Shown here: in pieces, positions 8,094 through 42,834 of the stretch | Layout of the letters: every line of letters begins with the position of its first letter | How positions within the stretch are numbered: position 1 is the first letter of the stretch | From: Aureimonas altamirensis | GTDB taxonomy: Bacteria; Pseudomonadota; Alphaproteobacteria; Rhizobiales; Rhizobiaceae | Length of the DNA: 64,000 nucleotides | NCBI RefSeq assembly: GCF_001463885.1 | Contig: NZ_BBWQ01000018.1 | Location: 1 to 64,000 of the forward strand | Direction: 5' to 3' | The notes under the pieces: generated by a model | Database searches by the model: none | Told to the model about the DNA's origin: nothing | What the model saw: the letters and a program-made list of their open reading frames with translations, nothing else | Translations under genes and position numbers: made by a program

Positions 8094-8960
8094 TCAATCG
8101 ATTACGTGCCCGCGCTCTGCCGCGTAATCCTGCACGAACTGCCAGGCCACGCGCCCGGACCGGCTGCCCCGCGTCGTATACCATTCCAGCGCGGCGCGCC
8201 TTGCATCCTGCGCGTCGTGCGAAACCGCATAGGCAGCCAGATAGCCGTCCACCATGGCCAGATACTCGTCCTGCGAGCAGGCATGGAAGCCGATCCACAG
8301 GCCGAAGCGATCGGACAGGGAGACCTTCTCTTCGACGGCCTCGCCGGGCGAGATCGCCGTGGACTGCTCGTTCTCCATCATCGAGCGCGGCAGAAGATGC
8401 CGGCGATTCGACGTGGAATAGAAGACGACGTTGCGGGGCCTGCCCTCGACGCCGCCATCCAGCACCGCCTTCAGCGATTTGTAGCTGGTGTCGTCATGAT
8501 CGAACGACAGGTCGTCGCAGAACAGGACGATCCGGTAAGGGCTTTCGCGCAGGAAACCCATCAACGCCGGCAGGTGATCGATGTCCTCGCGGTGGATCTC
8601 GATCAGCTTCAGGGCGGCTTGCGGCACCAGGGCGTTCACCTCGGCATGCGCCGCCTTGACCAGAGACGATTTGCCCATGCCGCGCGCGCCCCACAGAAGC
8701 GCATTGTTGGCGGGCAGGCCTTCGGCAAAGCGCTTCGTATTGGTTAGCAGGATGTCGCGGGCGCGGTCGATACCGGTCAGAAGCGATATCGGCACGCGGC
8801 TTACCTGCCGCACCGGGCGCAGCGTCATCGGCGGCTCGAACACGAAACAGTCCGCAGTGGAAAGATCGGGGGCGCGGTCCGGGGCAGGTGCGATCCTCTC
8901 CAGCGCGGCCGCGATGCGCGACAGCGTCGATTCGAGATCCTGTTGCCGATGGATATCCAT
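8094..8960 (-). CDS. DUF815 family ATP-binding protein
   Basis: AAA-like ATPase of the DUF815 family, 288 residues, cytoplasmic. It shows a Walker A motif (LLWGARGMGKSSLV), a Walker B-like stretch (IVLFCDDLSFD), a sensor-type FYSTSNRRHL segment with a likely arginine finger, and a C-terminal LEWYTTRGSRSGRVAWQF signature typical of the family. Its cellular role is not established. The gene is divergent from yajC and convergent with the LytM lipoprotein gene. Start ATG at 8958-8960 gives the usual family length. Confidence 0.85.
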   Translation of the reverse strand: MDIHRQQDLESTLSRIAAALERIAPAPDRAPDLSTADCFVFEPPMTLRPVRQVSRVPISLLTGIDRARDILLTNTKRFAEGLPANNALLWGARGMGKSSLVKAAHAEVNALVPQAALKLIEIHREDIDHLPALMGFLRESPYRIVLFCDDLSFDHDDTSYKSLKAVLDGGVEGRPRNVVFYSTSNRRHLLPRSMMENEQSTAISPGEAVEEKVSLSDRFGLWIGFHACSQDEYLAMVDGYLAAYAVSHDAQDARRAALEWYTTRGSRSGRVAWQFVQDYAAERGHVID

Positions 8961-9110: not shown

Positions 9111-9452
9111 ATGTTCGTATCCCCGGCTTACGCCCAGACCGCAGGTGCCGCCGGCGGAACGGAAAGCCTGCTCATCACCATCCTGCCCTTCGTGGCCGTC
9201 TTCGCCATCATGTACTTCCTCATCATTCGGCCGCAGCGCCGCCAGATGAAGAAGCGTGACGAGATGCTGCGCAATGTTCGCCGTGGCGATACGGTGGTGA
9301 CGGGCGGCGGCATCATCGGCAAGGTGACCAAGGTTCTCGACAATGGCGAGCTCGAGGTGCAGATTTCCGAGCAGGTCAAGATCCGCGTGCTTCAGTCGAC
9401 CATCGGCGACGTCCGCGTGAAGGGCGAGCCGGCGGCGGCCAACACGAAATAG
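9111..9452 (+). CDS. yajC: Preprotein translocase subunit YajC
   Basis: Accessory membrane protein of the Sec holotranslocon, associated with SecDF. The 113-residue product has one N-terminal membrane helix (LLITILPFVAVFAIMYFLII), then the family signature RPQRRQMKKRDEML, then a small cytoplasmic beta domain (GDTVVTGGGIIGKV). AGGAG five bases upstream supports ATG 9111. It precedes secDF with a structured spacer, the classic yajC-secD order. Confidence 0.96.
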   Translation: MFVSPAYAQTAGAAGGTESLLITILPFVAVFAIMYFLIIRPQRRQMKKRDEMLRNVRRGDTVVTGGGIIGKVTKVLDNGELEVQISEQVKIRVLQSTIGDVRVKGEPAAANTK

Positions 9453-9517: not shown

Positions 9518-9575
9518 AAATCATTGATACGGTGTGCGCCGCGCAGGCGGCTTAAAGCCCTTTCCCGGAACGGCC

Positions 9576-12134
9576 ATGCTCTACTTCTCGCGCTGGAAAT
9601 CCATTCTCATCTGGTTGGTCGTTGCGATGGGCGTTCTTTTCGCCCTTCCCAACATCCTGACCCAGCGCCAGTTGGAGGCCATGCCGGGCTGGCTGCCCGA
9701 CAGGCCGATGACCCTTGGTCTCGACCTTCAGGGCGGCTCCTACATCCTCCTGGAAATCGACCGTGCATCGCTGGTAACGGCGCGCCTCAACTCCGTGCGC
9801 GACGACGCGCAGTTGCAACTGCGCAATGGCAATGTCGGCTTTACCGACCTGCGCGAAGTGAATGGCGGCGTCGAGTTCCGCCTGCGCGATCCGGCGCAGG
9901 CTGCCGCGGCACGCACCGCGCTGCGCCCCCTGACCGACCCGGTCTCGTCCGGCATGATGGCCGGCGGCACGATCACCGAGGTCGATCTTGCCGAGCCGCA
10001 ATCCGGCACATTCCGCCTGACCCTGACCGAGCAGGGAATCAACCATCGTCTGTCGACCGCCGTTTCGCAGTCGATCGAGGTCGTGCGCCGCCGCGTCGAC
10101 GAACTCGGTACGACGGAGCCCGTCATCCAGCGCCAGGGCGTTGATCGAATCATGGTGCAGGTGCCGGGCCTGCAGGATCCGGCGCGCCTGAAGGCATTGT
10201 TGAACCAGACCGCGCAGCTGACCTTCCGCCTGGTCGATCTGCAGCATTCCGCCGAGGCCGTTGCCGCCGGGCAGCAGCCGGCGCCCGCCGGATCGGAGCT
10301 GCTCTACACCACAGACAATCCGGCGATGCCCATTCTGGTGCAGCGCCAGGTGATGGTGTCGGGTGAAAACCTGACGGATGCGCAGGCCGGCTTCGACCAG
10401 CAGACCAACGCGGCCGTCGTCAACATCCGCTTCGATTCGCGCGGGGCGCAGCGCTTCGGCGCGGTGACCCAGCAGAATGTCGGGCGCCCCTTCGCCATCG
10501 TTCTCGACGACAAGGTGCTGTCGGCGCCCAATATCCGCGAGCCGATCCTGGGCGGGCAGGCACAGATCTCCGGCAATTTCACCGTGCAGACGGCCAACGA
10601 TCTTTCCGTGCTGCTGCGCGCCGGCGCGCTTCCGGCCAATCTGAACATCCTGGAAGAGCGCACCGTCGGCCCCGGCCTCGGCGCGGATTCCGTCGCCGCC
10701 GGCCAGATGGCCGGCATTATCGGCGGCATCTTCGTGATCGTGTTCATGTTTGCGGCCTATGGCTTTCTCGGCCTCATCGCCAACATCGCGCTGATCATCA
10801 ACATCATCCTGCTGGTGGCCCTCCTGTCATTCCTGGGGGCAACGCTGACACTGCCGGGCATCGCGGGCATCGTGCTCACCATGGGCATGGCCGTGGATTC
10901 CAACGTGCTCATCTACGAGCGAATACTGGAAGAGCGAAAACAGGGCCGCTCGGTGATCCAGTCGATCGACGCCGGCTTCCACAAGGCGTTCGGCACGATC
11001 ATGGACGCCAACATAACGTCGCTCATCGCGGCGGCGGTGTTGTTCTTCCTCGGCTCCGGTCCGGTGCGGGGCTTCGCCGTTACCCTGGCGCTGGGCATCC
11101 TCACCACCATCTTCACCGCCATCACGCTGACGCGCTGGCTGGTCGCCTATTGGGTCAAGCATCGTCGCCCCAAGGAAGTGCATCGCGGCTTCTTCACCTT
11201 CGTCCCGGAGAAGACGAATGTGCGCTTCATGGCGGTGCGTCGCATTGGCTTCGCCATAACGCTCATCCTGTCGATCGCCTCGGTGGGTGGCTTGGCCACG
11301 ATGGGTCTCAATTACGGCATCGACTTTACCGGCGGCACGGTCATCGAGGCGCAGTCCAAGGGACCTGAGGCCGATGTCGGCGCCATCCGCGCGGCGCTTG
11401 TGCCCATCATCGAAGGCGAGGCGCAGGTGCAGGAGTTCGGCTCCGCGCGCGATGTGCTGATCCGCTTCGGGGCGCAGAGCGCCGACCAGGAAACGCCACA
11501 GACCAGCATCAACGCCGTGCGCGCTGCCTTGTCGGCGGATTACGACTTCCAGCGGGTGGAAGTCGTCGGTCCATCCGTCTCCAACGAGCTGGCCATCGCA
11601 GCCGTGCTGGGCATTCTCGGCGCCATGTTTGGCATCATGGTCTATGTCTGGGTGCGGTTCGAATGGCAGTTCGCCATCGGCGCCATCGTGTCGACGGCGC
11701 ACGACGTGATCATGACCATCGGCTTCTTCGTGTTGATGCGGGCCGAGTTCAACCTCACCAGTATCGCCGCGGTGCTGACCATCGTCGGCTACTCGCTCAA
11801 CGACACCATCGTCGTCTTCGACCGCATGCGCGAGAATTTGCGCAAGTACAAAAAGATGCCGCTGGATACGCTGATCGACCTGTCGCTGAATGAAACGTTG
11901 AACCGTACGATCATGACGGGCGCCACCATGATCCTCGCGCTCGTCGCGCTGTACTTCTTCGGCGGCGACGTGATCCGCAACTTCGTTGCGCCGATGATCG
12001 TCGGCGTTATCGTGGGCGTGTACTCGTCGGTCTTCATCGCCGGCCCGATGCTGATCTACTTCAAGCTTCGGCCGGAAAAGGCCGCCATGGACAAGGCCGA
12101 GTCCGCCTCCGCCGGCGCGGCAAAGGAAGCCTGA
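9576..12134 (+). CDS. secDF: Fused protein translocase subunit SecDF
   Basis: Single polypeptide combining SecD (about residues 1-530) and SecF (about 560-852), which uses proton motive force to drive late steps of Sec export and membrane insertion. SecD shows the LGLDLQGGSYILLEID motif near the N-terminus and the large P1 periplasmic domain. The SecF half opens with LNYGIDFTGGTVIE. About twelve membrane helices are visible, with the conserved MAVDSNVLIYERI and YSLNDTIVVFDR segments. I use ATG 9576, giving MLYFSRWKSILIWLVV; the frame extends to 9534 with no signal-like content. Fusion is common in this order. Two complex-I-assembly-like genes follow at once. Confidence 0.96.
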   Translation: MLYFSRWKSILIWLVVAMGVLFALPNILTQRQLEAMPGWLPDRPMTLGLDLQGGSYILLEIDRASLVTARLNSVRDDAQLQLRNGNVGFTDLREVNGGVEFRLRDPAQAAAARTALRPLTDPVSSGMMAGGTITEVDLAEPQSGTFRLTLTEQGINHRLSTAVSQSIEVVRRRVDELGTTEPVIQRQGVDRIMVQVPGLQDPARLKALLNQTAQLTFRLVDLQHSAEAVAAGQQPAPAGSELLYTTDNPAMPILVQRQVMVSGENLTDAQAGFDQQTNAAVVNIRFDSRGAQRFGAVTQQNVGRPFAIVLDDKVLSAPNIREPILGGQAQISGNFTVQTANDLSVLLRAGALPANLNILEERTVGPGLGADSVAAGQMAGIIGGIFVIVFMFAAYGFLGLIANIALIINIILLVALLSFLGATLTLPGIAGIVLTMGMAVDSNVLIYERILEERKQGRSVIQSIDAGFHKAFGTIMDANITSLIAAAVLFFLGSGPVRGFAVTLALGILTTIFTAITLTRWLVAYWVKHRRPKEVHRGFFTFVPEKTNVRFMAVRRIGFAITLILSIASVGGLATMGLNYGIDFTGGTVIEAQSKGPEADVGAIRAALVPIIEGEAQVQEFGSARDVLIRFGAQSADQETPQTSINAVRAALSADYDFQRVEVVGPSVSNELAIAAVLGILGAMFGIMVYVWVRFEWQFAIGAIVSTAHDVIMTIGFFVLMRAEFNLTSIAAVLTIVGYSLNDTIVVFDRMRENLRKYKKMPLDTLIDLSLNETLNRTIMTGATMILALVALYFFGGDVIRNFVAPMIVGVIVGVYSSVFIAGPMLIYFKLRPEKAAMDKAESASAGAAKEA

Positions 12135-12136
12135 GC

Positions 12137-12526
12137 TTGGCGCAGGAAACCGCCGAAACCCGGGATGCGCATCTGCCGCGGCAGGTGCCCATCGACGCTT
12201 ACGGCAATGGCGGCTTCCGCTTCGGAGGCATGTCGCATCGCGGTTCTCTCCTGTGCCTGCCGTCCGGCCTTTACGGTTGGACTGGGACGGCGCAGGCGCC
12301 TTTTTCGGGCGAGCGGCTTTTGAAGGCGCTGGAAGAATCGGAAATCCGCTTCATGCTTTTCGGTACCGGGGCCGACATAAGGCGCGTCCCGGCCGCCTTG
12401 GCGGCCCGCTTCAACGCCGCCGGCATGTCCTGCGACGCCATGTCGACCGGGGCGGCGGTGCGCACCTACAACATCATGCTTCTCGAGGGGCGACCGGTCG
12501 GTGCGGCCCTCGTCGCGGTGGACTGA
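12137..12526 (+). CDS. Mth938/DUF498 family protein, NDUFAF3-like
   Basis: The 129-residue protein matches the Mth938-like (DUF498) fold: IDAYGNGGFRFGG near the N-terminus, LLCLPSGLYGW, LFGTGADIRR and the C-terminal VRTYNIMLLEGRPVGAALVAV. Human NDUFAF3, a complex I assembly factor, belongs to this family and from memory aligns over the same blocks. Translation probably starts at TTG 12137, two bases after the secDF stop, so it should be coupled to secDF. The neighbouring gene resembles another complex I assembly factor. Family assignment is strong; an assembly role in this organism is inference from family and context. Confidence 0.8.
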   Translation: MAQETAETRDAHLPRQVPIDAYGNGGFRFGGMSHRGSLLCLPSGLYGWTGTAQAPFSGERLLKALEESEIRFMLFGTGADIRRVPAALAARFNAAGMSCDAMSTGAAVRTYNIMLLEGRPVGAALVAVD

Positions 12527-12528
12527 CC

Positions 12529-13365
12529 TTGGACGAGGGCCTTGCCGCCGACTTCGCCGAATGCCGCAGGCTGGTCGACGAAAGCGACGCAGACCGCGCG
12601 GTATCGCTGGCCTATGCGCCCGATGACCGCCGGAATGCGCTGGCGGCTCTCTATGCCTTCGATATCGAGACGGGGCGCATCCGCGCCCAGGTGAGCCAAC
12701 CCCTGCCGGGAGAGATCCGCCTGCAATGGTGGCGGGACCGATTGGCAAATCCGCAGGATGAAGGGCAGGGCGCGCCGGTTGCGCATGCGCTGCTGGACAC
12801 GATCCAGCGATACGACCTGCCGCGCGATGCCTTTGAACGTTACCTCGAAGCACGCATCTTCGACCTCTACGACGACCCCATGCCCGCGCAGGCCGAGTTC
12901 GAGGCCTATGCCGGTGAAACGGCATCCACGATCATCATGCTTGCGGCCATGATACTGGGCGGCAGGCCCGACACGGTCGTTGCGGATGCCGCCGGCCATG
13001 CCGGGGTTGCAACGCTTGCCGCCGGACTTCTGCGCCGCGAGCCCCAGTTGCGACGGCTGGGGCAGAACTACGTTCCCGGCGATCTTCTATCCGCCGCCGG
13101 CGCGGACCATGCCGGATGGGCGTCCGGGCCGGATGGGTTGCAGGCCGCGCGGCTGGCGCTGGCGGCCTATGCACAGGACCATCTCAAGGCCGTAACAGGC
13201 CGCCTTTCGCAAATACCGCCTGCGATCAGGCCCGCCTTTCTGCCGGCCCTTGCCAATGGGGCAGCCCTGCGCATGGTGGAACGCAGAGGCGGTCTGCCCT
13301 ATGTCGAGTCCCGGTTTGCGGCGATGCAGCGCTTGTGGAGCTATTGGCGGGCCATGCGCGCCTGA
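12529..13365 (+). CDS. Phytoene/squalene-synthase-fold protein, NDUFAF6-like
   Basis: Likely start TTG 12529, two bases after the DUF498 stop, giving 278 residues; the same frame is open from 12253 but that part is a shadow. The all-helical trans-isoprenyl synthase fold is suggested by ALAALYAFDIETGRIR, LQWWRDRL, FEAYAGETAS and NYVPGDLL. Both aspartate-rich catalytic motifs are lost. The first reads FDIETGRIR (44-52) instead of a DxxxD form, and the second region (about 163-184) reads GLLRREPQLRRLGQNYVP without the Asp pair. This pattern fits the non-catalytic NDUFAF6 branch (complex I assembly) better than HpnC/D or CrtB. Function is inferred. Confidence 0.75.
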   Translation: MDEGLAADFAECRRLVDESDADRAVSLAYAPDDRRNALAALYAFDIETGRIRAQVSQPLPGEIRLQWWRDRLANPQDEGQGAPVAHALLDTIQRYDLPRDAFERYLEARIFDLYDDPMPAQAEFEAYAGETASTIIMLAAMILGGRPDTVVADAAGHAGVATLAAGLLRREPQLRRLGQNYVPGDLLSAAGADHAGWASGPDGLQAARLALAAYAQDHLKAVTGRLSQIPPAIRPAFLPALANGAALRMVERRGGLPYVESRFAAMQRLWSYWRAMRA

Positions 13366-13389: not shown

Positions 13390-14904
13390 ATGGTGTCCAT
13401 GCGGCACGGCGGCCGGGCCGCATTCCTGACGGCGCTGCCATCGCGCATCCTCAGCGCTGCCGGCGGGGCCGTGTCGCGGTTTCCATTCACGGTCTTATGC
13501 CTGCTTGCAGCCGCCATACTGGCCAATGCCTGGATTGCCGGCTATGGCGCGCTGTCCGGCAGCCAGCAGCGCCATATTCTTGCGGCCCTGTCCGTTGCGG
13601 TGCTCTGGTCGGTGGGCGTGGCGTCGGCCCTGTCCGCCGCGGGGCGTTCCCGCACGGTTACGCAAGCCGCCGCGGCCACGGCGGGCGTGGTGGCCGGCTG
13701 CATCGCCTGGTTTCATGAGCCGTTCGAGGATGCGTCCTGGGTTCTCCAACTGGCATCGCTGCTTTTCTTGTTCGCCGTGCCGTTTATCCGCAGGTCTGAG
13801 CCGGTCGGCCTGTGGACCTTCGTGCTGCGCAGCTTTGCTGCTTTCGGCCTTGCCTTCGTTGCCGTGCTGGCCTTCGTATCCGGCATGGTGCTGCTGGTGG
13901 AGCTGTTCCGGCTCCTGTTCGGCATCGGGCCGGGCTGGGAAACCTATGCCCATGTCTATGCGACGGCGCTGTTGCTGGTTGGCCCCATGGCGACGCTGGG
14001 TCTTTTTCCGGATGCGGGGAAAAACCTTCCGTCCGCCCGCCTGGAGGGGCTGGTCCGTGGTTTCCTGACCTTTGTGGCGGTCCCCCTTCTGATCGCTGCG
14101 CTTGTGGTGCTGCATCTTTACGCCATCAGGGTGGTCGTGACCGCAGACCTGGCTGCGCGCGACATGGTGTGGATCGTGCCGGTTCTTCTGCTGGATCTTG
14201 CCTTCGTGCGCTTCCTGTCGCAGCCGTTCGGCGGGACGCAGGCGCCGATGCCGGTGCGCGCCGTTCGGCGGTTCTGGCCCTTGGCATTGCCCGTGCCCCT
14301 CGTGCTGTTCACGATGGCGATCACGTCCGAGTCGGCGCGCAGTTGGACGCTGGAGCTGTATTATTCGGCGCTGTTCTGCCTGGTTTGCGCCATCCTCGGC
14401 GTCATGCAAATCGTGCCGGCTTTGCGCGGCGATCCACGCTGGTTCTTAGGGCTGCCGGCAGTTGCGCTGGCAGCCTCGCTTTTCGGTCCCTGGGGCGCGG
14501 CGGCGGTTACCTCACAGATGCCGGCCCGGCAACCGGCGGCCCCGGTCGCCTCGTTCAGCGACTATAACGCGCCGGCCGCGCCGGCCTTGCCGACACAGGG
14601 GTTCGATCTTGCGCTGGCCGATGTGGCCCTTGGCCAGGACGCAGGCAACGCCAGCCTGGACTTTGCCGCTCGCTTCGATGGGGGCGATCTCGTGCTGGAA
14701 CCTTCCGGCGGGGCGCCGGTGCGGTTTGCGATGGCGCCCATCATCGAGGCGATCGCGGCACAACCCTCTGTGCCCGCGCGCGGCATGTTGACTGCCGCGT
14801 CGGGCGAAACCCTGCTCTACGATGTAAAGTTTCTGCGCGTGGTGGACGGCCGGCCGCAAGTCGGCCGGATGACCATTCTGCTCCGCGCCGCCGACTGGGA
14901 GTAG
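13390..14904 (+). CDS. DUF4153 family membrane protein
   Basis: The 504-residue protein has roughly ten or eleven hydrophobic helices between residues 30 and 380, then a short periplasmic-type soluble tail. Features resembling DUF4153 include the helix FGLAFVAVLAFVSGMVLLVEL followed by an aromatic loop, and the later helix pair separated by RRFWPLALPVPLVLF. GGAAGGGG at 13376 supports ATG 13390. The role of the family is unknown. It sits 24 bases after the phytoene-synthase-like gene and converges on trmFO with a nine-base gap. Confidence 0.7.
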   Translation: MVSMRHGGRAAFLTALPSRILSAAGGAVSRFPFTVLCLLAAAILANAWIAGYGALSGSQQRHILAALSVAVLWSVGVASALSAAGRSRTVTQAAAATAGVVAGCIAWFHEPFEDASWVLQLASLLFLFAVPFIRRSEPVGLWTFVLRSFAAFGLAFVAVLAFVSGMVLLVELFRLLFGIGPGWETYAHVYATALLLVGPMATLGLFPDAGKNLPSARLEGLVRGFLTFVAVPLLIAALVVLHLYAIRVVVTADLAARDMVWIVPVLLLDLAFVRFLSQPFGGTQAPMPVRAVRRFWPLALPVPLVLFTMAITSESARSWTLELYYSALFCLVCAILGVMQIVPALRGDPRWFLGLPAVALAASLFGPWGAAAVTSQMPARQPAAPVASFSDYNAPAAPALPTQGFDLALADVALGQDAGNASLDFAARFDGGDLVLEPSGGAPVRFAMAPIIEAIAAQPSVPARGMLTAASGETLLYDVKFLRVVDGRPQVGRMTILLRAADWE

Positions 14905-14913
14905 CGGCCGGGC

Positions 14914-16320
14914 TTAGCTCGCCTCGGCCAGGGCATGCGCGGCGTTCCACGCGCCGAAGTCGGACAAAGCGCGCGCTGCCATCGCCTTCTTCTTGGCGAC
15001 GGTCTTTTCCTTGCCTCGAAGGCGCTTGCCCTCGATCTTCGGCGCCTCCATCGGCGGAAACAACCCGAAATTGACGTTCATCGGCTGGAACGAGCGTTTG
15101 CCGGGCTCTTCGTCGGTGCTGATATGCCCGCCGGTAATATGGTTCAGCAGCGCGCCCATGGCGGTCGTCACCGGCGGCGGGGTTGGCGCGCGGCCAAGAG
15201 CCTCCGCAATGGCGAAGCGCCCGGCCATCAGGCCGACGCTTGTCGATTCGACATAGCCTTCGCATCCGGTTATCTGGCCCGCGAAGCGCAGATCGGGCCG
15301 CGCCTTGAGGCGCAGCGTGCCATCCAGCACGACAGGCGAGTTCAGATAGGTATTGCGATGCAGGCCGCCCAACCGTGCGAACTCCGCTGCCTCGAGGCCG
15401 GGGATCATGCGGAAGATGCGGGCCTGCTCGGCGTATTTCAGCTTGGTCTGGAATCCGACCATATTGTAGAGCGTGCCGAGCGCATTATCCTGCCGTAGCT
15501 GCACCACGGCATAGGCCTTGATGTCCGGTTGATGCGCGTTCGTCAGCCCCATCGGCTTCATCGGGCCGTGGCGCAGCGTCTCCGGCCCGCGTTCGGCCAT
15601 GACCTCGATGGGCAGGCAGCCGTCGAAATAGGGTGTCCCCTCCCACTCGCGGAACTCGGTCTTGTCGCCCTCTATCAGGGCGGCGACGAATGCCTCGTAG
15701 GTCGGCTTGTCGAGCGGGCAGTTGATGTAATCCTTGCCGGTGCCGCCGGGCCCGACCTTGTCATAGCGGCTTTGAAACCAGGCCTTGTCCAGGTCGATCG
15801 ATTCGAAATGGACGATGGGCGCGATGGCATCGAAGAAGGCGAGCGAATCCGCCCCGGTTTCCCGTGCGATCGCCTCTGCCAGGCCCGGGGCGGTCAGGGG
15901 CCCGGTGGCCACGATGGCGCTGCCCCATTCGGCGGGCGGCAGGCCGGTGATTTCTTCGCGGCGAATCTCCACCAGCGGATGGGCTTCCAGCGCCTGCGTC
16001 ACCGCGCGGGCGAATCCGTCGCGGTCGACGGCGAGGGCGCTGCCGGCGGGAACCTGGTTGGCATCCGCGGCGCGCATGATCAGGCTGCCGGCCAGGCGCA
16101 GCTCTGCATGCAGCACGCCGACGGCATTGCCCTCGGCGTCGTCGGAGCGGAACGAGTTGGAGCAGACGAGCTCTGCGAGGTCGTCCGTCTTGTGCGCATC
16201 GGTGCCGCGCACGCCGCGCATTTCGTGGAGGATGACGGGAATTCCTGCCTCGGCGATCTGCCAGGCGGCTTCCGAACCGGCGAGGCCGCCGCCGACGATG
16301 TGGATGGGTCTGTGTGCCAT
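14914..16320 (-). CDS. trmFO: tRNA m5U54 methyltransferase, folate/FAD-dependent (TrmFO)
   Basis: Methylates U54 in the T-loop of tRNA using methylenetetrahydrofolate and FADH2. The 468-residue protein begins with the FAD-binding [19 protein letters not shown]. It contains the TrmFO signatures [21 protein letters not shown] and [15 protein letters not shown], and ends with the [10 protein letters not shown] and NVNFGLFPP motifs. Length is typical. It is transcribed toward DUF4153 and is preceded by the DUF1127 gene and its terminator on the same strand. Confidence 0.96.
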
Positions 16321-29656: not shown

Positions 29657-30247
29657 ATGGAAGAGCTGGCCCAATATCTCGCGGAATCGCAGATCGGTAA
29701 CAGGATCGTCGAAAGCAAGGTTGCCTTCGGAGAGCTGACGTTGCGGGTTGCCCCCGCCGACATCGTTTCCGTACTGACATTCCTTCGCGACGATCCGTCC
29801 TGCCTGTTCAAGAACTTTACCGACATTTGCGGTGTCGATTACCCGCAGCGCGCAGAGCGCTTCGAGGTCGTCTATCATCTTCTGTCTCCGCGGCATAACC
29901 AGCGCATCCGCGTGAAGCTGCGCCTCGAGGAAGATGAATCGGTCCCGTCGGCTACCGGTGTGTTTCCCGGCGCCGACTGGTACGAGCGCGAAGCCTTCGA
30001 CATGTATGGCATCCTGTTCTCGGGCCATCCGGACCTGCGCCGTCTTCTGACGGACTACGGGTTCGAGGGGCATCCGCTGCGCAAGGATTTCCCGCTGACC
30101 GGCTTCGTCGAAGTGCATTACGACGAAGAGTTGAAGCGCGTCGTCTACGAGCCGGTGGAGCTGCGCCAGGAGTTCCGCAATTTCGACTTCCTGTCCCCGT
30201 GGGAAGGGCCGGAATACGTCCTTCCCGGCGACGAGAAGGCGAACTGA
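29657..30247 (+). CDS. nuoC: NADH-quinone oxidoreductase subunit C
   Basis: 30-kDa peripheral-arm subunit of complex I that contacts NuoD. The 196-residue protein has the conserved [17 protein letters not shown] block and the downstream [12 protein letters not shown] motif. It is separate from NuoD here, unlike the fused enterobacterial form. Its stop is one base before the inserted GFA gene rather than before nuoD. Confidence 0.96.
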
Positions 30248-30248
30248 G

Positions 30249-30692
30249 ATGGGCGAGACTGCCTCCAACCCCGTGGCGTTGACCGGTGGTTGCCTGTGTG
30301 GAGCGGTGCGCTTCACCGCGACGCCGCGCAAGCACGAGATGGATGTCTGCCATTGCAGCATGTGCCGGAAATGGACGGCCGGCATGTTCATGGCCGTTCC
30401 ATGCGGTGACAGCGTGCAGGTGGAGGACGAGTCGTCCCTCAAGGCCTTCGCGTCTTCGGAGTGGGGCGAGCGCGTCTTCTGCCAGGAGTGCGGCACCAGC
30501 CTGTTCTGGCGCCTGCGCGACGGAAGCGAGACGATGGTATCGATGCAGGCATTCGACGACATCAGCTCGTTCCGCTTTGTGGAAGAGATTTTCATCGACG
30601 AGAAGCCGGCGCTCTACGACTTCCGCAACGATACGCGCAAACTCACCGGGGCCGAAGTGATGGCCGCCTTCGCGGCGGGTCAGGGATCGTAA
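30249..30692 (+). CDS. GFA family zinc protein inserted in the nuo operon
   Basis: The 147-residue protein belongs to the GFA (glutathione-dependent formaldehyde-activating enzyme/CENP-V) family. Its Mss4-like zinc sites appear complete: [16 protein letters not shown] and FCQECGTS. It begins one base after the nuoC stop and ends one base before the nuoD start, so it is fully built into the operon and must be co-transcribed. GFA was named for helping glutathione react with formaldehyde, but most family members have no proven activity. A link to complex I, such as redox or cluster protection, is only suggested by position. Confidence 0.88.
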
Positions 30693-30693
30693 C

Positions 30694-31884
30694 ATGGCTG
30701 AGATCGACGTCAGAAACTTCAATATCAACTTCGGACCGCAGCATCCTGCCGCGCACGGCGTGCTGCGACTGGTGCTGGAACTCGACGGCGAAGTCGTCGA
30801 GCGGGTCGATCCGCATATCGGCCTGCTTCATCGCGGCACCGAAAAGCTGATCGAAACCAAGACCTACCTGCAGGCGATCCCCTATTTCGACCGGCTCGAC
30901 TATGTCGCGCCGATGAACCAGGAGCATGCCTTCTGCCTGGCCGTAGAGCGGCTGGCCGGCGTTGCCGTGCCGACGCGCGGGCAGTTGATCCGCGTTCTCT
31001 ACAGCGAGATCGGGCGTATCCTTTCGCATCTTCTCAACGTGACCACCCAGGCCATGGACGTCGGCGCGCTGACACCGCCGCTCTGGGGCTTCGAGGAGCG
31101 CGAGAAGCTGATGGTCTTCTATGAGAGGGCCTGCGGCGCGCGCCTCCATGCGGCGTATTTCCGGCCGGGCGGCGTCCATCAGGATATTCCGCCGGAACTG
31201 GTGGACGATATCGGCGCATGGTGCGATCCGTTCCTCAAGCGCGTCGACGACATCGACGAACTGTTGACCGGCAACCGCATCTTCAAGCAGCGCAATGTCG
31301 ACATCGGCGTGGTGGATCTCGACGATGCGTGGGCGTGGGGATTCTCGGGCGTCATGGTGCGCGGATCGGGCGCGGCATGGGATCTGCGCAAAAGCCAGCC
31401 CTATGAATGCTACGACGAGATGGATTTCGACATTCCGATCGGCAAGAACGGCGATTGCTACGACCGCTACCTCATCCGCATGGAAGAGATGCGCCAGTCC
31501 ACCTACATCATGAAGCAGTGCATCGAGCGCCTTGCCGGCAGCGACCGCGTTGGGCCGGTATCGGCCGTCGACGGCAAGCTGGTGCCGCCCAAGCGTGGCG
31601 AGATGAAGCGCTCGATGGAAGCGCTCATCCATCACTTCAAGCTTTATACCGAGGGCTTCCACGTGCCCGAAGGCGAGGTTTTCGCGGCCGTCGAAGCGCC
31701 CAAGGGCGAGTTCGGCGTGTATCTGGTGGCAGACGGAACCAACAAGCCCTACCGCTGCAAGATCAAGGCCCCCGGCTTCTCGCATCTTCAGGCTATGGAT
31801 TTCCTGTGCCGCAAGCACATGCTGGCCGACGTGTCGGCCATTCTCGGCTCTTGCGATATCGTCTTCGGCGAGGTCGATCGCTGA
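30694..31884 (+). CDS. nuoD: NADH-quinone oxidoreductase subunit D
   Basis: 49-kDa subunit forming the quinone-binding pocket with NuoB. The 396-residue protein starts with [15 protein letters not shown], whose HPAAH segment carries a histidine at the quinone head-group site. [10 protein letters not shown], the conserved [14 protein letters not shown] and the C-terminal [11 protein letters not shown] follow. Length and motifs are standard. A 144-base gap holding inverted repeats follows before nuoE, the only large internal gap in this part of the operon. Confidence 0.97.
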
Positions 31885-31964
31885 CAGCTTCGCCGACTGC
31901 CGCGCGGATCCGTGCGGCGGCCTGTTTTCATACCCGGCCATGCGGTCTCGACCGCTGGCGTTTT

Positions 31965-32013
31965 GCGCGTTCTATGATAGAACGCGCCGCAACATGGAAC
32001 GTTGTAACCGTTC
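31965..32013 (+). repeat. Inverted repeats upstream of nuoE
   Basis: A perfect ten-base inverted repeat GCGCGTTCTA-TGA-TAGAACGCGC occupies 31965-31987. A second, GAACG-N7-CGTTC, occupies 31997-32013, sharing the GAACG core. They lie 16 to 64 bases before nuoE. As RNA they form hairpins that could protect or cleave the long nuo message; as DNA they resemble an operator. There is no T-tract, so termination is unlikely. Confidence 0.6.
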
Positions 32014-32028
32014 TGAAGTAGAGGTCCG

Positions 32029-33225
32029 ATGTCCGTCAGGCGTCTCGCGGAAGATTCCGTCCAACCCCAGAGTTTCTCCTTCTCCTCGGAGAACGAGGGC
32101 TGGGCGGAAAAGACGATCCGCAAGTATCCCGAAGGCCGGCAGCAGTCGGCGGTGATCCCGCTGCTGATGCGCGCGCAGGAGCAGGAAGGCTGGGTCACGA
32201 AGGCCGCGATCGAGCATGTCGCCGTCAGGCTGTCGATGCCGCTGATCCGGGTTCTCGAGGTTGCGACCTTCTATACCCAGTTCCAGTTGGCCCCGGTGGG
32301 CACGCGGGCGCATATCCAGGTGTGCGGCACCACGCCCTGCATGCTGCGGGGATCCGACGCGCTGAAGGATGTGTGCAAGCGCCGCATCCATCCCGACCAG
32401 TTCCAGCCCAATGCCGACGGCACCCTGTCCTGGGAAGAGGTCGAGTGCCTTGGCGCCTGCGTCAACGCTCCGATGGTCATGATTTTCAAGGATACCTACG
32501 AAGACCTGACGCCCGAGCGGCTGGAAGAGATCATCGACGCCTTCGCTGCGGGCGATGGCGCTTCGGTGCCGGTCGGTCCGCAGATCGACAGGCACCTGTC
32601 TGCCCCGATCGGCGGCGCGACGACATTGAACAGCTTCGACGACGATGCCGATATCGGCGATGCAAAGCCGTCCGGCCCGGCCTCCGGTTCGGCGGCGACG
32701 GGCGAGGGGGCAAGCGTTGCTCCATCCGAGGCAGCGCGTGTCGACACCCATGCCGAAGAGACGGACCCGACCATCAAGGGCCCGGCGCCGGATTCGGCAA
32801 AGACCAGCCCCGCTGTCGAAGAGGCCGCGAGCGCCGACCCGGCCACCAATGGCGGCGGTGGCACGACCGGCGGTACGCAGCAGGGCGAAACCGGTGCTGC
32901 CCGCAAGGAATCCGATGCAGGCAAAGCCGCCGTCGACGGTGGCGATGCCCCGGCGGCGATTGGTGCGGCCGAGGGGCCGGGCGCGCCGGCGGGCCTTCTG
33001 TCCGACGTGCCGGCCGATGCCGACGACCTCAAGATACTGAATGGCGTCGGCCCGAAGATCGAGGCGGCACTGAACGAGATCGGCGTGTATCGTCTGGGCC
33101 AGGTTGCCGGCTGGACCGAGGGCGAACTCGCCTGGGTCGACAAGCGGCTGGGGCTTGGCGGGCGTGCTGTTCGCGGCGGCTGGATCGAGCAGGCCCACGC
33201 GCGGCTGGCCGAGAAGGGTGAGTGA
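32029..33225 (+). CDS. nuoE: NADH-quinone oxidoreductase subunit E with C-terminal HhH extension
   Basis: 24-kDa subunit carrying cluster N1a. The thioredoxin-like core (about 1-185) has the four ligands Cys99, Cys104, Cys140 and Cys144 (CGTTPC and ECLGAC). At 398 residues it is about twice the usual length. A low-complexity Ala/Gly/Thr/Asp linker (about 195-325) leads to a C-terminal helix-hairpin-helix-like domain (about 326-398; [20 protein letters not shown] and WIEQAHARL). The same kind of tail occurs on other proteins in this order, including ribosomal L21. The tail's function is unknown; cluster chemistry should be unaffected. Confidence 0.95.
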
Positions 33226-33235
33226 GGGCTGAACG

Positions 33236-34543
<1,308 letters not shown>

Positions 34544-34617
34544 CATGGCGTTTGGGGGCGGCGATCGCGCAGCCCCGTCGGATTGCCGGCAACGGCTCGG
34601 GACTTGAGAAGAAGCAG

Positions 34618-36696
34618 ATGGCAAAGATCAAAGTCGACGGAACGGAAATCGAAGTACCCGACCACTATACGCTGCTGCAGGCGGCGGAAGAGGCGGGTGC
34701 GGAAATTCCACGCTTCTGCTTCCACGAGCGGCTGTCGGTCGCCGGCAATTGCCGCATGTGTCTGGTGGAAGTGAAGGGTGGGCCGCCCAAGCCTGCCGCG
34801 TCCTGCGCCATGGGCGTGCGCGACCTGCGCCCCGGGCCGAACGGCGAAACGCCGGAAATCTTCACCAATACGCCGATGGTCAAGAAGGCGCGCGAAGGGG
34901 TGATGGAGTTTCTCCTCATCAACCATCCGCTGGATTGCCCGATCTGCGACCAGGGCGGCGAATGCGACCTGCAGGACCAGGCGATGGCCTTCGGCGTCGA
35001 TTCCTCGCGCTACCGCGAAAACAAGCGCGCCGTCGAAGACAAGTATATCGGCCCGCTGGTCAAGACGATCATGACGCGCTGCATCCATTGCACGCGCTGC
35101 GTCCGCTTCACGACCGAGGTTGCCGGCATCTCCGAGCTGGGGCTGATCGGCCGTGGCGAGGATGCCGAGATCACCACCTATCTCGAACATGCGATGACGT
35201 CCGAGTTGCAGGGCAACGTCATCGACCTTTGCCCGGTCGGCGCGCTCACCTCTCGGCCCTATGCCTTCCAGGCGCGCCCGTGGGAACTGACCAAGACCGA
35301 GTCGGTCGACGTGATGGATGCCGTCGGTTCGGCCATCCGGGTGGATACGCGCGGCCGCGAGGTGATGCGCATCCTGCCCCGCGCCAATGACGACATCAAC
35401 GAGGAGTGGATCTCCGACAAGACCCGCTTCGTCTGGGATGGCCTGCGCACCCAGCGCCTGGACCGGCCCTATGTCCGCCGCGACGGACGGCTTCAGGCCG
35501 TAAGCTGGCCGGAGGCCTTCGCAGAAATCCGCGCAAGGCTGGACGGCGTTCCGGGCGAGCGCATCGGCGCCATTGCAGGCGATCTCGCCGCCGTGGAAGA
35601 CATGTGGGCCCTCAAGGGCCTGATGGGTGCTCTCGGCAGCACCAACCTCGACTGCAGGCAGGATGGTGTCGCCCTGGACCCGGCCCATGGCCGCGCTTCC
35701 TATGTCTTCAACAGCGGTATCACCGGTATCGAGGAAGCCGACGCGCTTCTGCTGATCGGCGTCAATCCGCGGTTCGAGGCGTCCGTTCTCAACGCGCGCA
35801 TCCGCAAACGCTGGCGGCAGGGCAATTTCACCATCGGCATGATCGGGCAGAATGCCGATCTTCGCTACGGTGCAACGTATCTCGGCGCAGGCGTCGATAC
35901 CTTGACGGGCCTGAAGTCCGACAATGGCGCCTTCTACGACGTCCTGTCCAAGGCCGAGCGGCCGATGATCATCGTCGGCTCCGGTGCGCTTTCGGGCGAT
36001 AACGGCGCGGGCGTCCTGGCGGCGGCGGCTGCGCTGGCCCGCGACGTCGGGGCAACCGGCGGCGCATGGGCGGGCTTCAACGTCCTGGCCACGGCGGCAT
36101 CGCGCGTCGGCGGCCTGGATATCGGCTTCGTGCCGGGCAAGGGCGGTCGCAAGGCGGCCGAGATGGCATCCGGCGGCGTCGACATCCTGTTCAATCTCGG
36201 CGCGGACGAAATCGATGTGGCGGCGGGCCCCTTCGTCGTCTACATCGGCACGCATGGCGACCGCGGCGCGCACCGCGCCGACGTCATCCTGCCGGCGGCT
36301 GCCTACACGGAAAAGTCGGGCACCTACGTCAACCTCGAGGGGCGCGTGCAGGTTGGGCAGAGGGCTGCTTTCCCGCCCGGCGATGCGCGCGAGGATTGGG
36401 CCATCTTCCGCGCACTGTCCGCGGTGCTGGGCCGGACGCTGCCATACGACTCCCTCAATGCGCTGCGCGCCGACCTTCACGCGGCCCATCCGCACCTTTC
36501 CCGGGAAGAAAAGATCGTTGCCGATCAGTCGGTTCTGGCAAAGCTTGCCGATGCAGCATCGGCCAATCTCGGAGGGGGCGCCTTCACGGCCGCCGTTTCC
36601 GATTTCTACCTGACCAATCCGATCGCACGCGCTTCCAAGATCATGGCGGAATGCTCCCGCCTGGCCCAGGAAGCGCATGTCGAAGCGGCCGAGTAG
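34618..36696 (+). CDS. nuoG: NADH-quinone oxidoreductase subunit G
   Basis: 75-kDa iron-sulphur subunit holding clusters N1b, N4 and N5. The 692-residue protein starts [20 protein letters not shown], a 2Fe-2S ferredoxin domain with [15 protein letters not shown]. It continues through the His/Cys site [18 protein letters not shown] and the [10 protein letters not shown] / LCPVGALTS four-cysteine set. A molybdopterin-oxidoreductase-like C-terminal half follows, without the extra N7 cluster seen in E. coli. ATG 34618 fits GAGAAGAAG upstream; the in-frame extension to 34552 is unlikely. Confidence 0.96.
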
Positions 36697-36709
36697 GACG
36701 AGTTAAGTT

Positions 36710-37756
36710 ATGGAATTCTTCGGAACCTATGTCTGGCCGGCCATCGTGATCCTGGGACAGAGCCTCCTCTTCCTGGTGGTTCTGCTTGTCCTGATCGCCT
36801 ACATCCTTCTGGCCGACCGCAAGATCTGGGCTGCCGTCCAGATGCGGCGCGGGCCGAACGTCGTCGGGCCCTTCGGCCTGTTCCAGTCCTTCGCGGATCT
36901 GTTGAAGTTCGTGCTCAAGGAGCCGACGGTTCCGGCGGCATCCGACAAGATCGTCTTCCTGCTTGCGCCGCTTGTCGCGGTGACGCTGGCCCTGGCCACC
37001 TTTGCCGTCGTGCCTGTGGCGGACGGATGGGTGATCGCCAATATCAATATCGGCATTCTCTACATCTTCGCCATTTCCTCGCTGGAGGTTTATGGCGTCA
37101 TCATGGGTGGCTGGGCTTCCAACTCCAAATACGCGTTCCTGGGCGCCCTGCGCTCGGCTGCGCAGATGGTGTCCTACGAGGTCTCCATCGGCTTCGTCAT
37201 CGTGACGGTGCTTCTCTGCGTCGGCTCGCTGAACCTGACCGATATCGTCCTGGCACAGAATACGGGCCTTGGAACCATGCTCGGCTTGCCCGGCAGCTTC
37301 CTCGACTGGCACTGGCTGGCGCTGTTCCCGATGTTCGTCATCTTCTTCATCTCGGCCTTGGCCGAGACGAACCGCCCGCCCTTCGACCTTCCGGAAGCGG
37401 AATCGGAGCTGGTTGCAGGCTTCATGGTCGAGTACGGCTCCACCCCGTACATGATGTTCATGCTGGGCGAGTACGCGGCCATCACCCTGATGTGCTCGCT
37501 GATGACGATCCTCTTCCTTGGCGGCTGGCTGCCTCCGTTCGACTTCGCGCCCTTCACCTGGGTGCCGGGTGTCATCTGGTTCCTGCTGAAAGTCGCCTTC
37601 TGCTTCTTCCTCTTCGCGATGGTGAAGGCCTTCGTGCCGCGTTACCGTTACGACCAGTTGATGCGGCTTGGCTGGAAGGTCTTCCTGCCGATCTCGCTGG
37701 CTTCGGTCGTCGTCGTCGCCTTCGTTCTCCAGGTCACGGGGTGGGCCGCGTCATGA
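36710..37756 (+). CDS. nuoH: NADH-quinone oxidoreductase subunit H
   Basis: Membrane subunit that lines the quinone channel with NuoA and NuoD. The 348-residue protein has eight or nine helices and the conserved loop [21 protein letters not shown]. The [20 protein letters not shown] segment carries the acidic residues of the E-channel. The stop overlaps the nuoI start (ATGA). Confidence 0.97.
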
Positions 37757-38244
37757 GCGCACTCGCACACAACATCAAGTCGCTTTTCCTGATCGAGTTC
37801 GTGAAGGCTTTCGGCCTTTCGATGCGGTATTTCTTCGCGCCCAAGGCGACGCTGAACTACCCCTACGAGAAGGGCCCGGTCAGCGCGCGCTTCCGGGGCG
37901 AGCACGCCTTGCGCCGCTATCCCAACGGGGAAGAGCGGTGCATCGCCTGCAAGCTCTGCGAGGCCATCTGCCCGGCCCAGGCCATCACCATCGAGGCGGG
38001 CCCCCGCCGCAATGACGGCACCCGCCGCACGGTGCGCTACGACATCGACATGGTGAAGTGCATCTATTGCGGCTTCTGCCAGGAGGCGTGCCCTGTCGAC
38101 GCCATCGTGGAAGGGCCGAATTTCGAGTTCTCGACCGAAACGCGCGAAGAGCTCTACTACGACAAGGAAAAGCTTTTGGCGAACGGCGACCGCTGGGAGC
38201 GGGAGATCGCCCGCAACATCGCCATCGATGCGCCATACCGCTGA
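37753..38244 (+). CDS. nuoI: NADH-quinone oxidoreductase subunit I
   Basis: 23-kDa ferredoxin-like subunit with clusters N6a and N6b. The 163-residue protein has two CxxCxxCxxxCP motifs, [12 protein letters not shown] and [12 protein letters not shown], both complete. The start ATG 37753 overlaps nuoH by four bases; the same frame is open from 37027 as a shadow of nuoH. The N-terminal helix ([19 protein letters not shown]) rests on the membrane arm. Confidence 0.97.
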
Positions 38245-38344
38245 GCGGGAAGGGCGGTAAGCCGCCCCTTTCGCGCACAAGATTTGAAACTCGATGCCGC
38301 GCCGCTACGGCGTGGTTCCGCCGGACGACCAAAGGAGCCCGAGG

Positions 38345-38962
38345 ATGCTGGGCCTTCAGGCACTCTTCTTCTACATATTCGCGCTGATCACCGTCGGCGC
38401 CGCGCTCATGGTTGTGTTTTCCCGCAACCCGGTTCACTCGGTGCTCTTCCTGATCCTCACCTTCGTGAGCGCGGCAGGGCTGTTCCTGCTGACCGGGGCG
38501 GAGTTCCTGGCGCTGATCCTCATCGTCGTCTATGTCGGCGCGGTGGCGATCCTGTTCCTGTTCGTCGTCATGATGCTCGATCTCGACATCGGGCAGGTGA
38601 AGCGCGGGGCGTTGAAATATGCGCCTATCGGCGCGCTGGTGGGCCTTATCATCCTGGCGCAGCTGGTGATCGCGGTGACGGGCAGCTACTTCAACCCCGA
38701 GCTTGCCGGCAACACGGTGATGCCGATCCCGCCGATCGATCAGGTGTCCAACATCGAGGCGCTCGGGCAGGTTCTTTACACCCGCTACATCTTCTTCTTC
38801 CAGATGGCCGGCCTGGTGCTGTTCGTCGCCATGATCGGTGCGATCGTGCTGACGCTGCGTCACAAGGAAGGCATCAAGCGGCAGTCGATCCCGGAGCAGG
38901 TGCGCCGCACCCCGGAGACATCCATCGAAATCCGCAAGGTCGAGAGCGGCAAGGGAATCTGA
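38345..38962 (+). CDS. nuoJ: NADH-quinone oxidoreductase subunit J
   Basis: Membrane subunit of the proton-pumping arm. The 205-residue protein has five helices, with the conserved [20 protein letters not shown] and [20 protein letters not shown] segments; the latter contains the pi-bulge helix. AAAGGAG at 38331 supports ATG 38345 over an upstream in-frame ATG at 38294. A 100-base gap after nuoI holds only this ribosome-binding site. Confidence 0.95.
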
Positions 38963-38972
38963 GGACAGTACA

Positions 38973-39281
38973 ATGGAAGTCGGTCTCGGACATTATCTCA
39001 CTGTCGGCGCCATCCTCTTCGTTATCGGGGTGTTCGGCATTTTCATGAACCGCAAGAACATCATCACGATCCTGATGTCGATCGAGCTGATCCTGCTTTC
39101 GGTCAACATCAATCTCGTGGCGTTCTCGGCCTTTCTCAACGATCTGGCCGGCCAGGTGTTCGCGCTGTTCATCCTGACGGTCGCGGCCGCGGAGGCCGCA
39201 ATCGGCCTGGCGATCCTGGTCACCTTCTTCCGTAACCGCGGCTCCATCGCCGTGGATGACGTCAGCACGATGAAAGGCTGA
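38973..39281 (+). CDS. nuoK: NADH-quinone oxidoreductase subunit K
   Basis: Three-helix membrane subunit homologous to MrpC. The 102-residue protein has the key glutamates in [15 protein letters not shown] and in [12 protein letters not shown], both part of the proton path. It lies ten bases after nuoJ and 14 bases before nuoL. Confidence 0.97.
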
Positions 39282-39295
39282 GGCGGGCACCACAC

Positions 39296-41302
39296 ATGTA
39301 TCAGGCAATCGTCCTACTGCCGCTTCTGGGCTTTCTCATCGCCGGCCTCTTCGGCCGCGCGATCGGGGCCAAGGCATCCGAATACGTCACCAGCGGGCTG
39401 GTCATCCTGGCAGCCACGCTGTCGTGGGTGGGCTTCATCACTTTCGGCATGGGCGACGGCGAGCCCATCCGCATCACGTTGCTGCAATGGGTGCAGTCGG
39501 GCTCGCTGAGCTTCGACTGGTCGCTGCGCATCGATCGGCTGACGCTCATCATGCTGGTGGTGATCAACACCGTTTCGGCGCTCGTGCATGTCTATTCCAT
39601 CGGGTACATGCACCACGATCCGCACCGCCCGCGCTTCTTTGCCTATCTGTCGCTGTTCACCTTCGCCATGCTGATGCTGGTGACGGCCAACAATCTGGTG
39701 CAGATGTTCTTCGGCTGGGAAGGCGTCGGTCTGGCCTCGTACCTGCTGATCGGCTTCTGGTACAAGAAGCCCTCGGCCAACAAGGCGGCAATGAAGGCCT
39801 TCGTGGTCAACCGCGTCGGCGACTTCGGCTTTCTGCTGGGCATCTTCGGCCTGTTCGTCGTCTTCGGCTCGGTGCAGCTCGACACCATCTTCACCAACGC
39901 CATCGGCATGGCCGGTCCGGTTGCGGAGCATGGTGCGGAAGCCGCCGCAGCAGCCACTGCGACGCCGGCAGCCACCGACATCATGTTCCATTTCGGAAGC
40001 TGGGGCTTCACCTATGGCGGGGCGATGACCGTCATCTGCCTGCTTCTGTTCATGGGCGCCATGGGCAAGTCGGCGCAGCTTGGCCTGCACACCTGGCTGC
40101 CGGACGCCATGGAAGGCCCGACCCCCGTTTCCGCGCTGATCCACGCCGCCACCATGGTGACGGCGGGTGTCTTCATGCTGGCGCGCATGTCGCCGGTGTT
40201 CGAGCTGGCGCCAAGCGCCCTGACCTTCGTGACCTTCATCGGCGCCACCACCGCGTTCTTCGCGGCGACGGTCGGCATGGTGCAGAACGACATCAAGCGC
40301 GTCATCGCCTATTCCACGTGCTCGCAGCTCGGCTACATGTTCGTGGCGCTGGGCGTCGGCGCCTATGGCGCGGCGGTGTTCCACCTGTTCACGCACGCCT
40401 TTTTCAAGGCGCTTCTGTTCCTTGGGGCCGGCTCGGTCATCCACGCCGTCTCGGACGAGCAGGACATGCGCAACATGGGCGGCCTGCGCAAGCATATCCC
40501 GCTGACCTACTGGATGATGGTCATCGGTACGCTGGCGCTGACGGGCTTTCCCTTCACGGCGGGCTACTATTCCAAGGACGCGATCATCGAAAGCGCCTTT
40601 GCGGGGCACAACAGCTTCGCCATGTATGGCTACATCATGCTGGTGGTAGCGGCCCTGATGACGAGCTTCTATTCCTGGCGGCTCATCTTCATGACCTTCC
40701 ACGGCAAGCCGCGCGCCAGCCACGAAGTGATGCACCACGTGCACGAGTCTCCCCCCATCATGACGGTTCCGCTGTTCGTGCTGGCGGCCGGCGCGCTCCT
40801 GGCGGGCATCGTGTTCTATCCGTTCTTCATGGGCGGCAGCTACGACGCCTTCTGGCACGGCGCGATCTTCACCGGTCCGAACAACCACATCCTGCACGAG
40901 ATGCACGAGGTGCCCGGGCTTGTGATCTGGTCGCCCACCATCGCGATGGTCATCGGCTTCGTGCTGGCCTGGCTGTTCTATATCCGCCAGCCGCAGCGCC
41001 CGGCGCAGATCGCCGCGCGCAATCCGGGGCTCTACAAGTTCCTCTTGAACAAGTGGTACTTCGACGAGCTCTATGACTTCCTCTTCGTACGGTCGGCCAA
41101 GGCCATCGGCCGCTTCCTCTGGAAGACGGGCGACGGCAAGATCATCGACGGCTACGGACCCAACGGCATTTCGGCGCGCGTCGTCGATGTCACCAACCGC
41201 GTCGTCCGGCTGCAGACCGGCTACCTTTACCACTATGCGTTCATCATGCTGATCGGCGTCGCGGCGCTCGTCACCTTCATGATGTTCGGGGGAATGAACT
41301 GA
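39296..41302 (+). CDS. nuoL: NADH-quinone oxidoreductase subunit L
   Basis: Distal antiporter-like proton-pumping subunit with the long lateral helix. The 668-residue protein shows [19 protein letters not shown], the lysine-bearing [20 protein letters not shown] and [18 protein letters not shown] motifs, and the C-terminal amphipathic helix HL region. An Ala/Thr-rich loop (around 205-225) between helices is longer than in E. coli. Its stop overlaps nuoM by one base (TGATG). Confidence 0.97.
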
Positions 41303-42813: not shown

Positions 42814-42834
42814 GGACGGACAGGCGAACATCTC

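Follow-up and report, generated by a model that had tools for sequence, protein, structure and literature searches.

NDUFAF3-like and NDUFAF6-like genes behind yajC-secDF in Alphaproteobacteria and their association with complex I

The Candida protein NDU1 is described as the orthologue of human NDUFAF6 (C8orf38) and as required for complex I (PMC8007014). According to the relevant passages of that paper, NDU1, NDUFAF6 and their orthologues are devoid of both DxxxD motifs, the NDU1 cluster of the published tree holds eukaryotic as well as prokaryotic members, and yeasts without complex I are also without NDU1; the same passages state the actual function of NDUFAF6-type proteins as unknown and cite work on ND1 biogenesis together with a 2017 paper on NDUFAF6 evolution (PMC8007014). 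Co-evolution of NDUFAF3, C8orf38 and C2orf56 is reported in an excerpt of PMC3436739. Variants of NDUFAF6 are given as a cause of Leigh syndrome in excerpts of the clinical literature. Saada et al. are said to have linked NDUFAF3, in 2009, with bacterial SecD/SecF/YajC and with C8ORF38 (i.e. NDUFAF6). Their paper is cited in an extract of PMC4992684; a second paper stating the linkage of NDUFAF3 with SecDF was not found among the matches listed (best 2 to 30 per search).

The locus analysed here lies in a 64,000-nt stretch of Aureimonas altamirensis DNA (called the window, at its full length) and carries, next to yajC-secDF, one gene of the NDUFAF3/Mth938/DUF498 family and one NDUFAF6-like gene. 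Like NDUFAF6/C8orf38 and NDU1, the second protein has a squalene/phytoene-synthase fold from which both Asp motifs are gone; unlike NDUFAF6 it is bacterial and encoded beside yajC-secDF, its likeness to the human protein being drawn from the literature and its role in complex I being proposed by analogy. HpnC, HpnD and CrtB share its fold and Pfam family but keep the Asp motifs, which the window protein has lost, and it scores far below the cut-offs of their models. The gene linkage, and what is concluded from it, are the same as those attributed to the 2009 study. The association of secDF with NDUFAF3 and NDUFAF6 genes is therefore real and already known in outline: since the motif loss is in print in the NDU1 paper, in the passages mentioned, and the gene linkage reportedly dates from 2009, we regard it as the rediscovery of a published link and not, as a preliminary description of this DNA had it, as an under-described system. 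What is added here is that, in one lineage and through one event, the NDUFAF6-like gene tracks the mitochondrial-type complex I and not the E. coli type; a contrast between alphaproteobacterial-type and E. coli-type complex I in this respect was not met in the literature searched (best matches among open-access papers). The features of the window that matter for the argument are the following.

9111 to 9452, plus strand: yajC (Pfam YajC, 93.2 bits; NCBIfam TIGR00739 above cut-off)
9534 to 12134, plus strand: fused secDF (Pfam SecD_SecF_C, SecDF_P1_head and SecD_1st above cut-off; NCBIfam NF009583, SecDF subfamily, 897 bits against a cut-off of 721)
12137 to 12526, plus strand: DUF498/Mth938 gene, NDUFAF3 family, predicted TTG start (PF04430, 91.1 bits against a cut-off of 33)
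12529 to 13365, plus strand: NDUFAF6-like gene, squalene/phytoene-synthase fold without Asp motifs, predicted TTG start (SQS_PSY PF00494, 152.4 bits against 26)
13390 to 14904, plus strand: gene for a 504-aa protein without a Pfam match at E ≤ 1, membrane-like to the eye
29657 to 44277, plus strand: nuo genes for a complex I of alphaproteobacterial type, in which NuoC and NuoD are separate (Pfam matches for NuoC, D, E, F, H, L, M and N; NuoL/M/N distinguished by gene order)

The yajC, secDF, DUF498 and NDUFAF6-like genes of the window are found on one strand in this order. With the predicted start codons, 2 intergenic nt separate the SecDF stop codon (12132-12134) from the TTG of the DUF498 gene (12137), and another 2 nt separate the stop codon of the latter (12524-12526) from the TTG of the NDUFAF6-like gene (12529); translational coupling of the two genes is plausible from this spacing. 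Order, spacing, the assignment to both families and the presence of nuo genes downstream all agree with the preliminary description. The DUF498 protein shares PF04430 with NDUFAF3 and Mth938. Its solved bacterial relatives are 2fi9 (E = 8e-35) and 2fvt (E = 1.9e-26), which we take to be Mth938-like structures. Among the matches listed, the closest named relatives of the NDUFAF6-like protein occur in Aureimonas and Aurantimonas, the best ones at 52-56% identity.

Judged by profile and predicted fold, the NDUFAF6-like protein is probably a non-catalytic protein with the fold of a squalene synthase. An AlphaFold model, made with an alignment of 51 relatives, reached a pLDDT of 93.4, and among the best solved Foldseek matches were the CrtM-like 8is6 (E = 7.3e-9, TM 0.83) and HpnC 4hd1 (E = 1.7e-8, TM 0.77). 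Both Asp motifs, in line with what had been read from the sequence before, are lost: FDIETGRIR occupies residues 44-52, there is no Asp in residues 163-184, and profile alignment does not restore them, since it places YAFDIETGRIR at the first site (DIETG instead of DDxxD) and GLLRREPQLRR at the second (instead of LRDxxED). At those sites, catalytic paralogues and HpnD-type genes from the same stretches have CRxxDDIAD and NILRDxxEDA. The consensus of the 52 aligned proteins (window protein and 51 relatives) is YAFNxEIARxRExVSEPMLGxIRLQWWRE at the first site and GLLRAxPFHA at the second. Scores against the NCBIfam equivalog models stay well below cut-off (77.3 against 278.6 bits for HpnD, lower for CrtB and HpnC), and a second PF00494-family gene of the source genome, on contig 10, has its motifs intact. 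A catalytic isoprenoid enzyme was rejected on the loss of the Asp motifs together with these scores. The carbazole prenyltransferases LvqB4 and CqsB4, also among the Foldseek matches, would suit an enzyme that still works as a prenyltransferase through an atypical active site; we hold this to be very improbable given that other conserved residues replace both Asp motifs and that R64, W68 and D112 are invariant across the 52 proteins.

The separation of such proteins from catalytic synthases was followed in three trees of bacterial proteins, built after removal of the motif columns. A fast tree of 184 proteins has four changes between motif-less and catalytic labels. Two changes were counted in a tree of 80, for which a single clade was not rejected (AU p 0.888) and in which the motif-less row L022 had been mislabelled catalytic by pattern. 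In a second sample of 69, from which long-branch rows were excluded by hand, there are three changes, and a motif-less relative is the partner of the window protein (99/86). By sequence, then, motif-less and catalytic proteins appear to be largely separate, and a grouping with catalytic synthases, which would have spoken against the preliminary description, was not seen; strict monophyly was demonstrated by none of the three trees.

Gene order was analysed in 100 neighbourhoods reaching about 4 kb away from DUF498, hand-picked from the 164 DUF498 genomes of the class survey described below, among the matches listed and mostly with room on the contig. SecDF was found in 95 of them (94 clear cases and one 39-bit edge match), and YajC in 94. 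In 71, DUF498 is followed downstream by a motif-less synthase-fold ORF with the same orientation (a script found 70; the other is L012, where the locus ends within the gene). Because clear secDF is present in 94/100 and the motif-less gene in 71/100, the arrangement secDF-DUF498-NDUFAF6-like is not due to chance. Eighty named loci, whose titles point mostly to Rhizobiales and which were selected via their NDUFAF6-like gene, have DUF498 in 80 cases, YajC in 74 and SecDF in 72; in 72/80 the gap between the DUF498 and NDUFAF6-like genes is -16 to 36 nt, as estimated by extending tblastn matches. The conserved order behind yajC-secDF would also be expected if both proteins served general membrane-protein insertion with YajC-SecDF, their co-occurrence with complex I then arising through joint loss in reduced genomes. 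We consider this explanation unlikely on the basis of the genome data given below.

Several other genes were seen around these loci. The gene for the 504-aa protein starts 24 nt past the NDUFAF6-like gene, and relatives with 29-39% identity are present at 11/80 named loci (tblastn; ten with Aureimonas, Aurantimonas or Jiella in the title, the eleventh a Rhizobiaceae MAG) and at 0/100 class loci; it is probably lineage-specific and outside the conserved cluster. On the opposite strand, the DUF815 ATPase gene upstream (window 8094-8960, minus strand) has relatives at 71/80 named loci, and the gene downstream (14914-16320, minus strand), presumably TrmFO-like, at 67/80. In several families a putative Fe superoxide dismutase gene, read from the sequence, lies on the opposite strand between yajC or DUF498 and the NDUFAF6-like gene (L179 765-1376; L153 722-1330; also L012 and L049).

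Catalytic-motif synthase-fold genes occur a few kb from the DUF498/NDUFAF6-like genes at 13/100 loci by a script rule (L009, L010, L012, L019, L030, L038, L045, L055, L072, L084, L085, L096 and L099), and L029, L076 and L080, beyond these 13, also have a catalytic-looking second motif. Their nearness could be a sign that the motif-less gene arose in tandem. Together with the shared fold, they would also fit a role of the NDUFAF6-like protein in squalene/hopanoid synthesis, as a lipid-binding regulator or a partner without catalysis of its own, a pseudo-subunit of HpnC/HpnD. This is improbable, as catalytic copies remain where the NDUFAF6-like gene is gone: 23 genomes without alphaproteobacterial complex I, from the family with patchy complex I treated below, have catalytic-type synthase matches only, and 4 of the 22 complex-I-less genomes of the class survey hold synthase-fold genes, all of them catalytic with motifs intact.

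The class survey comprised 289 alphaproteobacterial genomes with completeness of at least 90%. NuoD was found in 266, DUF498 in 164 and the NDUFAF6-like gene in at least 178, a lower count since G125 and G282 were scored negative with a second weak match unread and G282 later turned out positive. In 150 genomes the NDUFAF6-like gene was called by a score of at least 146 bits (the top single catalytic copy then being at 118; motif check for the fetched loci), and in 28 by motif; the profile search at first scored at most 8 candidates per genome, and the remaining candidates were scored later. The NDUFAF6-like gene is present in 177/266 genomes with NuoD versus 1/23 without, and DUF498 in 163/266. 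The sole DUF498 carrier without NuoD is G189, a fragmented assembly which has both genes and also NuoH. The earlier proposal of a link with complex I is supported in that complex I was found in 178/178 carriers of the NDUFAF6-like gene (177 by NuoD, including a partial match in G193 at E = 8e-21, and G189 by NuoH) and in all 164 carriers of DUF498. Neither gene was detected in the 22 genomes without NuoD and without NuoH (0/22 each).

Neither gene is essential for complex I, because 89 of the 266 NuoD genomes were scored as lacking the NDUFAF6-like gene (88 once G282 was found positive) and 103 as lacking DUF498. The two genes also occur apart: 31 genomes have the NDUFAF6-like gene without DUF498, and 17 the reverse. 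Among 14 named genomes used as controls, E. coli matches NuoD and has no PF00494 match and no DUF498 match at E 0.001, while DUF498 matches were obtained in Thermus composti and Methanosarcina acetivorans; this family thus extends beyond the secDF/complex I setting.

All 22 complex-I-less genomes are 2.0 Mb or smaller, as joint loss during genome reduction would predict if the two proteins had a general insertion role. Against such a role, the contrast persists among small genomes: within a list of genomes of up to 2.0 Mb compiled by hand, the NDUFAF6-like gene is present in 17/78 with NuoD versus 0/22 without (P = 0.020, kinship ignored). For DUF498 the corresponding figures are not significant (13/78 versus 0/22, P = 0.066, kinship ignored).

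The type of complex I was compared in one family in which complex I is patchy. It includes G213, a genome counted both among the 22 of the class survey and among the 11 mentioned below, and by size and gene content it looks like Acetobacteraceae. For Acetobacteraceae, an extract of PMC10715153 mentions nuo operons of two kinds (nuo13 and nuo14); these would correspond to the two types of complex I distinguished here. NuoD was searched for in 150 genomes of the family and 53 were taken further: 11 without NuoH, 12 with E. coli-type NuoCD only, G309, 9 with both types and 20 of alphaproteobacterial type picked by hand. The other 97/150 stayed outside the set, including six with partial NuoD matches only (G290, G303, G305, G312, G360 and G412). 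Type was read from the NuoD sequence at 20 loci in 18 genomes (the 12, the E. coli-type copy of G309, the two copies in each of G341 and G392, and G328, G374 and G432); the fused NuoCD of the 12 is 58-83% identical to that of E. coli K-12 and 38-43% identical to the window NuoD.

The NDUFAF6-like gene was found in 28 of the 30 genomes with alphaproteobacterial complex I, alone or beside the other type, where the type was read from sequence in 5 and otherwise from NuoD and NuoH match scores. It is absent from G354 and G416. G309, at first classed with the genomes of E. coli type only, carries the gene; it also has two NuoH, the second of which scores as alphaproteobacterial. No NDUFAF6-like gene was detected in the 12 genomes with E. 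coli-type complex I only (0/12) or in the 11 without complex I (0/11), the latter being defined by lack of NuoH, with weak NuoD-family matches (E 3e-16 to 3e-8, above the Pfam cut-off) in 10 of them. Occurrence of the gene outside complex I genomes, which would have spoken against the proposed link, was thus seen neither here nor in the class survey (0/22).

Fisher's test on 28/30 versus 0/23 gives 5e-13, a value which we set aside because an HpnD tree of the family has a single change in alphaproteobacterial complex I. The loss of the NDUFAF6-like gene falls on the same branch (SH-aLRT of the split, 85), and the match within the family is for this reason one joint loss, not many. The tree, obtained by a quick method, holds 49 of the 53 genomes (G309, G328, G394 and G416, with HpnD below 150 bits, were excluded) and has G291 and G293 on a very long branch. 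The absence of the gene reaches genomes of 3.7 Mb with E. coli-type complex I only, which, as one event, argues against general insertion followed by loss in reduced genomes; in favour of that explanation, a YajC match lies near the NDUFAF6-like gene in 10/28 short loci of this family. DUF498 above cut-off was detected in 0/53 genomes of the family. As 28 of these carry the NDUFAF6-like gene, an obligate two-gene module is excluded, and the two genes do not form an obligate pair.

We therefore favour, with a probability of about two in three, the reading that the two genes are bacterial counterparts of NDUFAF3 and NDUFAF6 and that the second helps to assemble alphaproteobacterial (mitochondrial-type) complex I. 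It draws on the families, the motif loss, the gene order, the co-occurrence with complex I and, in one lineage and one event, the specificity for complex I type, while the assembly role itself would be carried over from the human and Candida proteins. As a proposed mechanism, the NDUFAF6-like protein would be located on the cytoplasmic side, near the Sec translocon at its YajC-SecDF part, where its cavity or surface might hold newly inserted NuoH (ND1), or the junction of the Q module with NuoH, until joining, and the DUF498 protein might assist on the Q-module side. NuoH as the client and a contact with SecDF are speculative. Of the assembly module working with SecDF that had been put forward for this locus, the link with complex I is supported, and cooperation with SecDF is suggested by gene order.

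A narrower version is possible, though we rate it as doubtful: the NDUFAF6-like pseudo-synthase would be a client-specific biogenesis factor for alphaproteobacterial complex I, acting most likely on the NuoH/ND1 region, and dropped when the complex is lost or succeeded by the E. coli type. If this is true, the type-specific sequence of NuoH would reveal what human NDUFAF6 recognises; the lineage with the joint loss, in which E. coli-type complex I occurs frequently, offers a ready comparison of client sequences, and a counterpart encoded in the bacterial yajC-secDF cluster provides a simple genetic system for finding the job of NDUFAF6.

The distance between DUF498 and NuoD was also computed in the class survey for 14 contigs with a length of 1 Mb or more, chosen by hand among the matches listed and treated as circular; the two genes are nearer to each other than random, the median circular distance being 0.11 of the contig compared with 0.25 expected (P 0.007).
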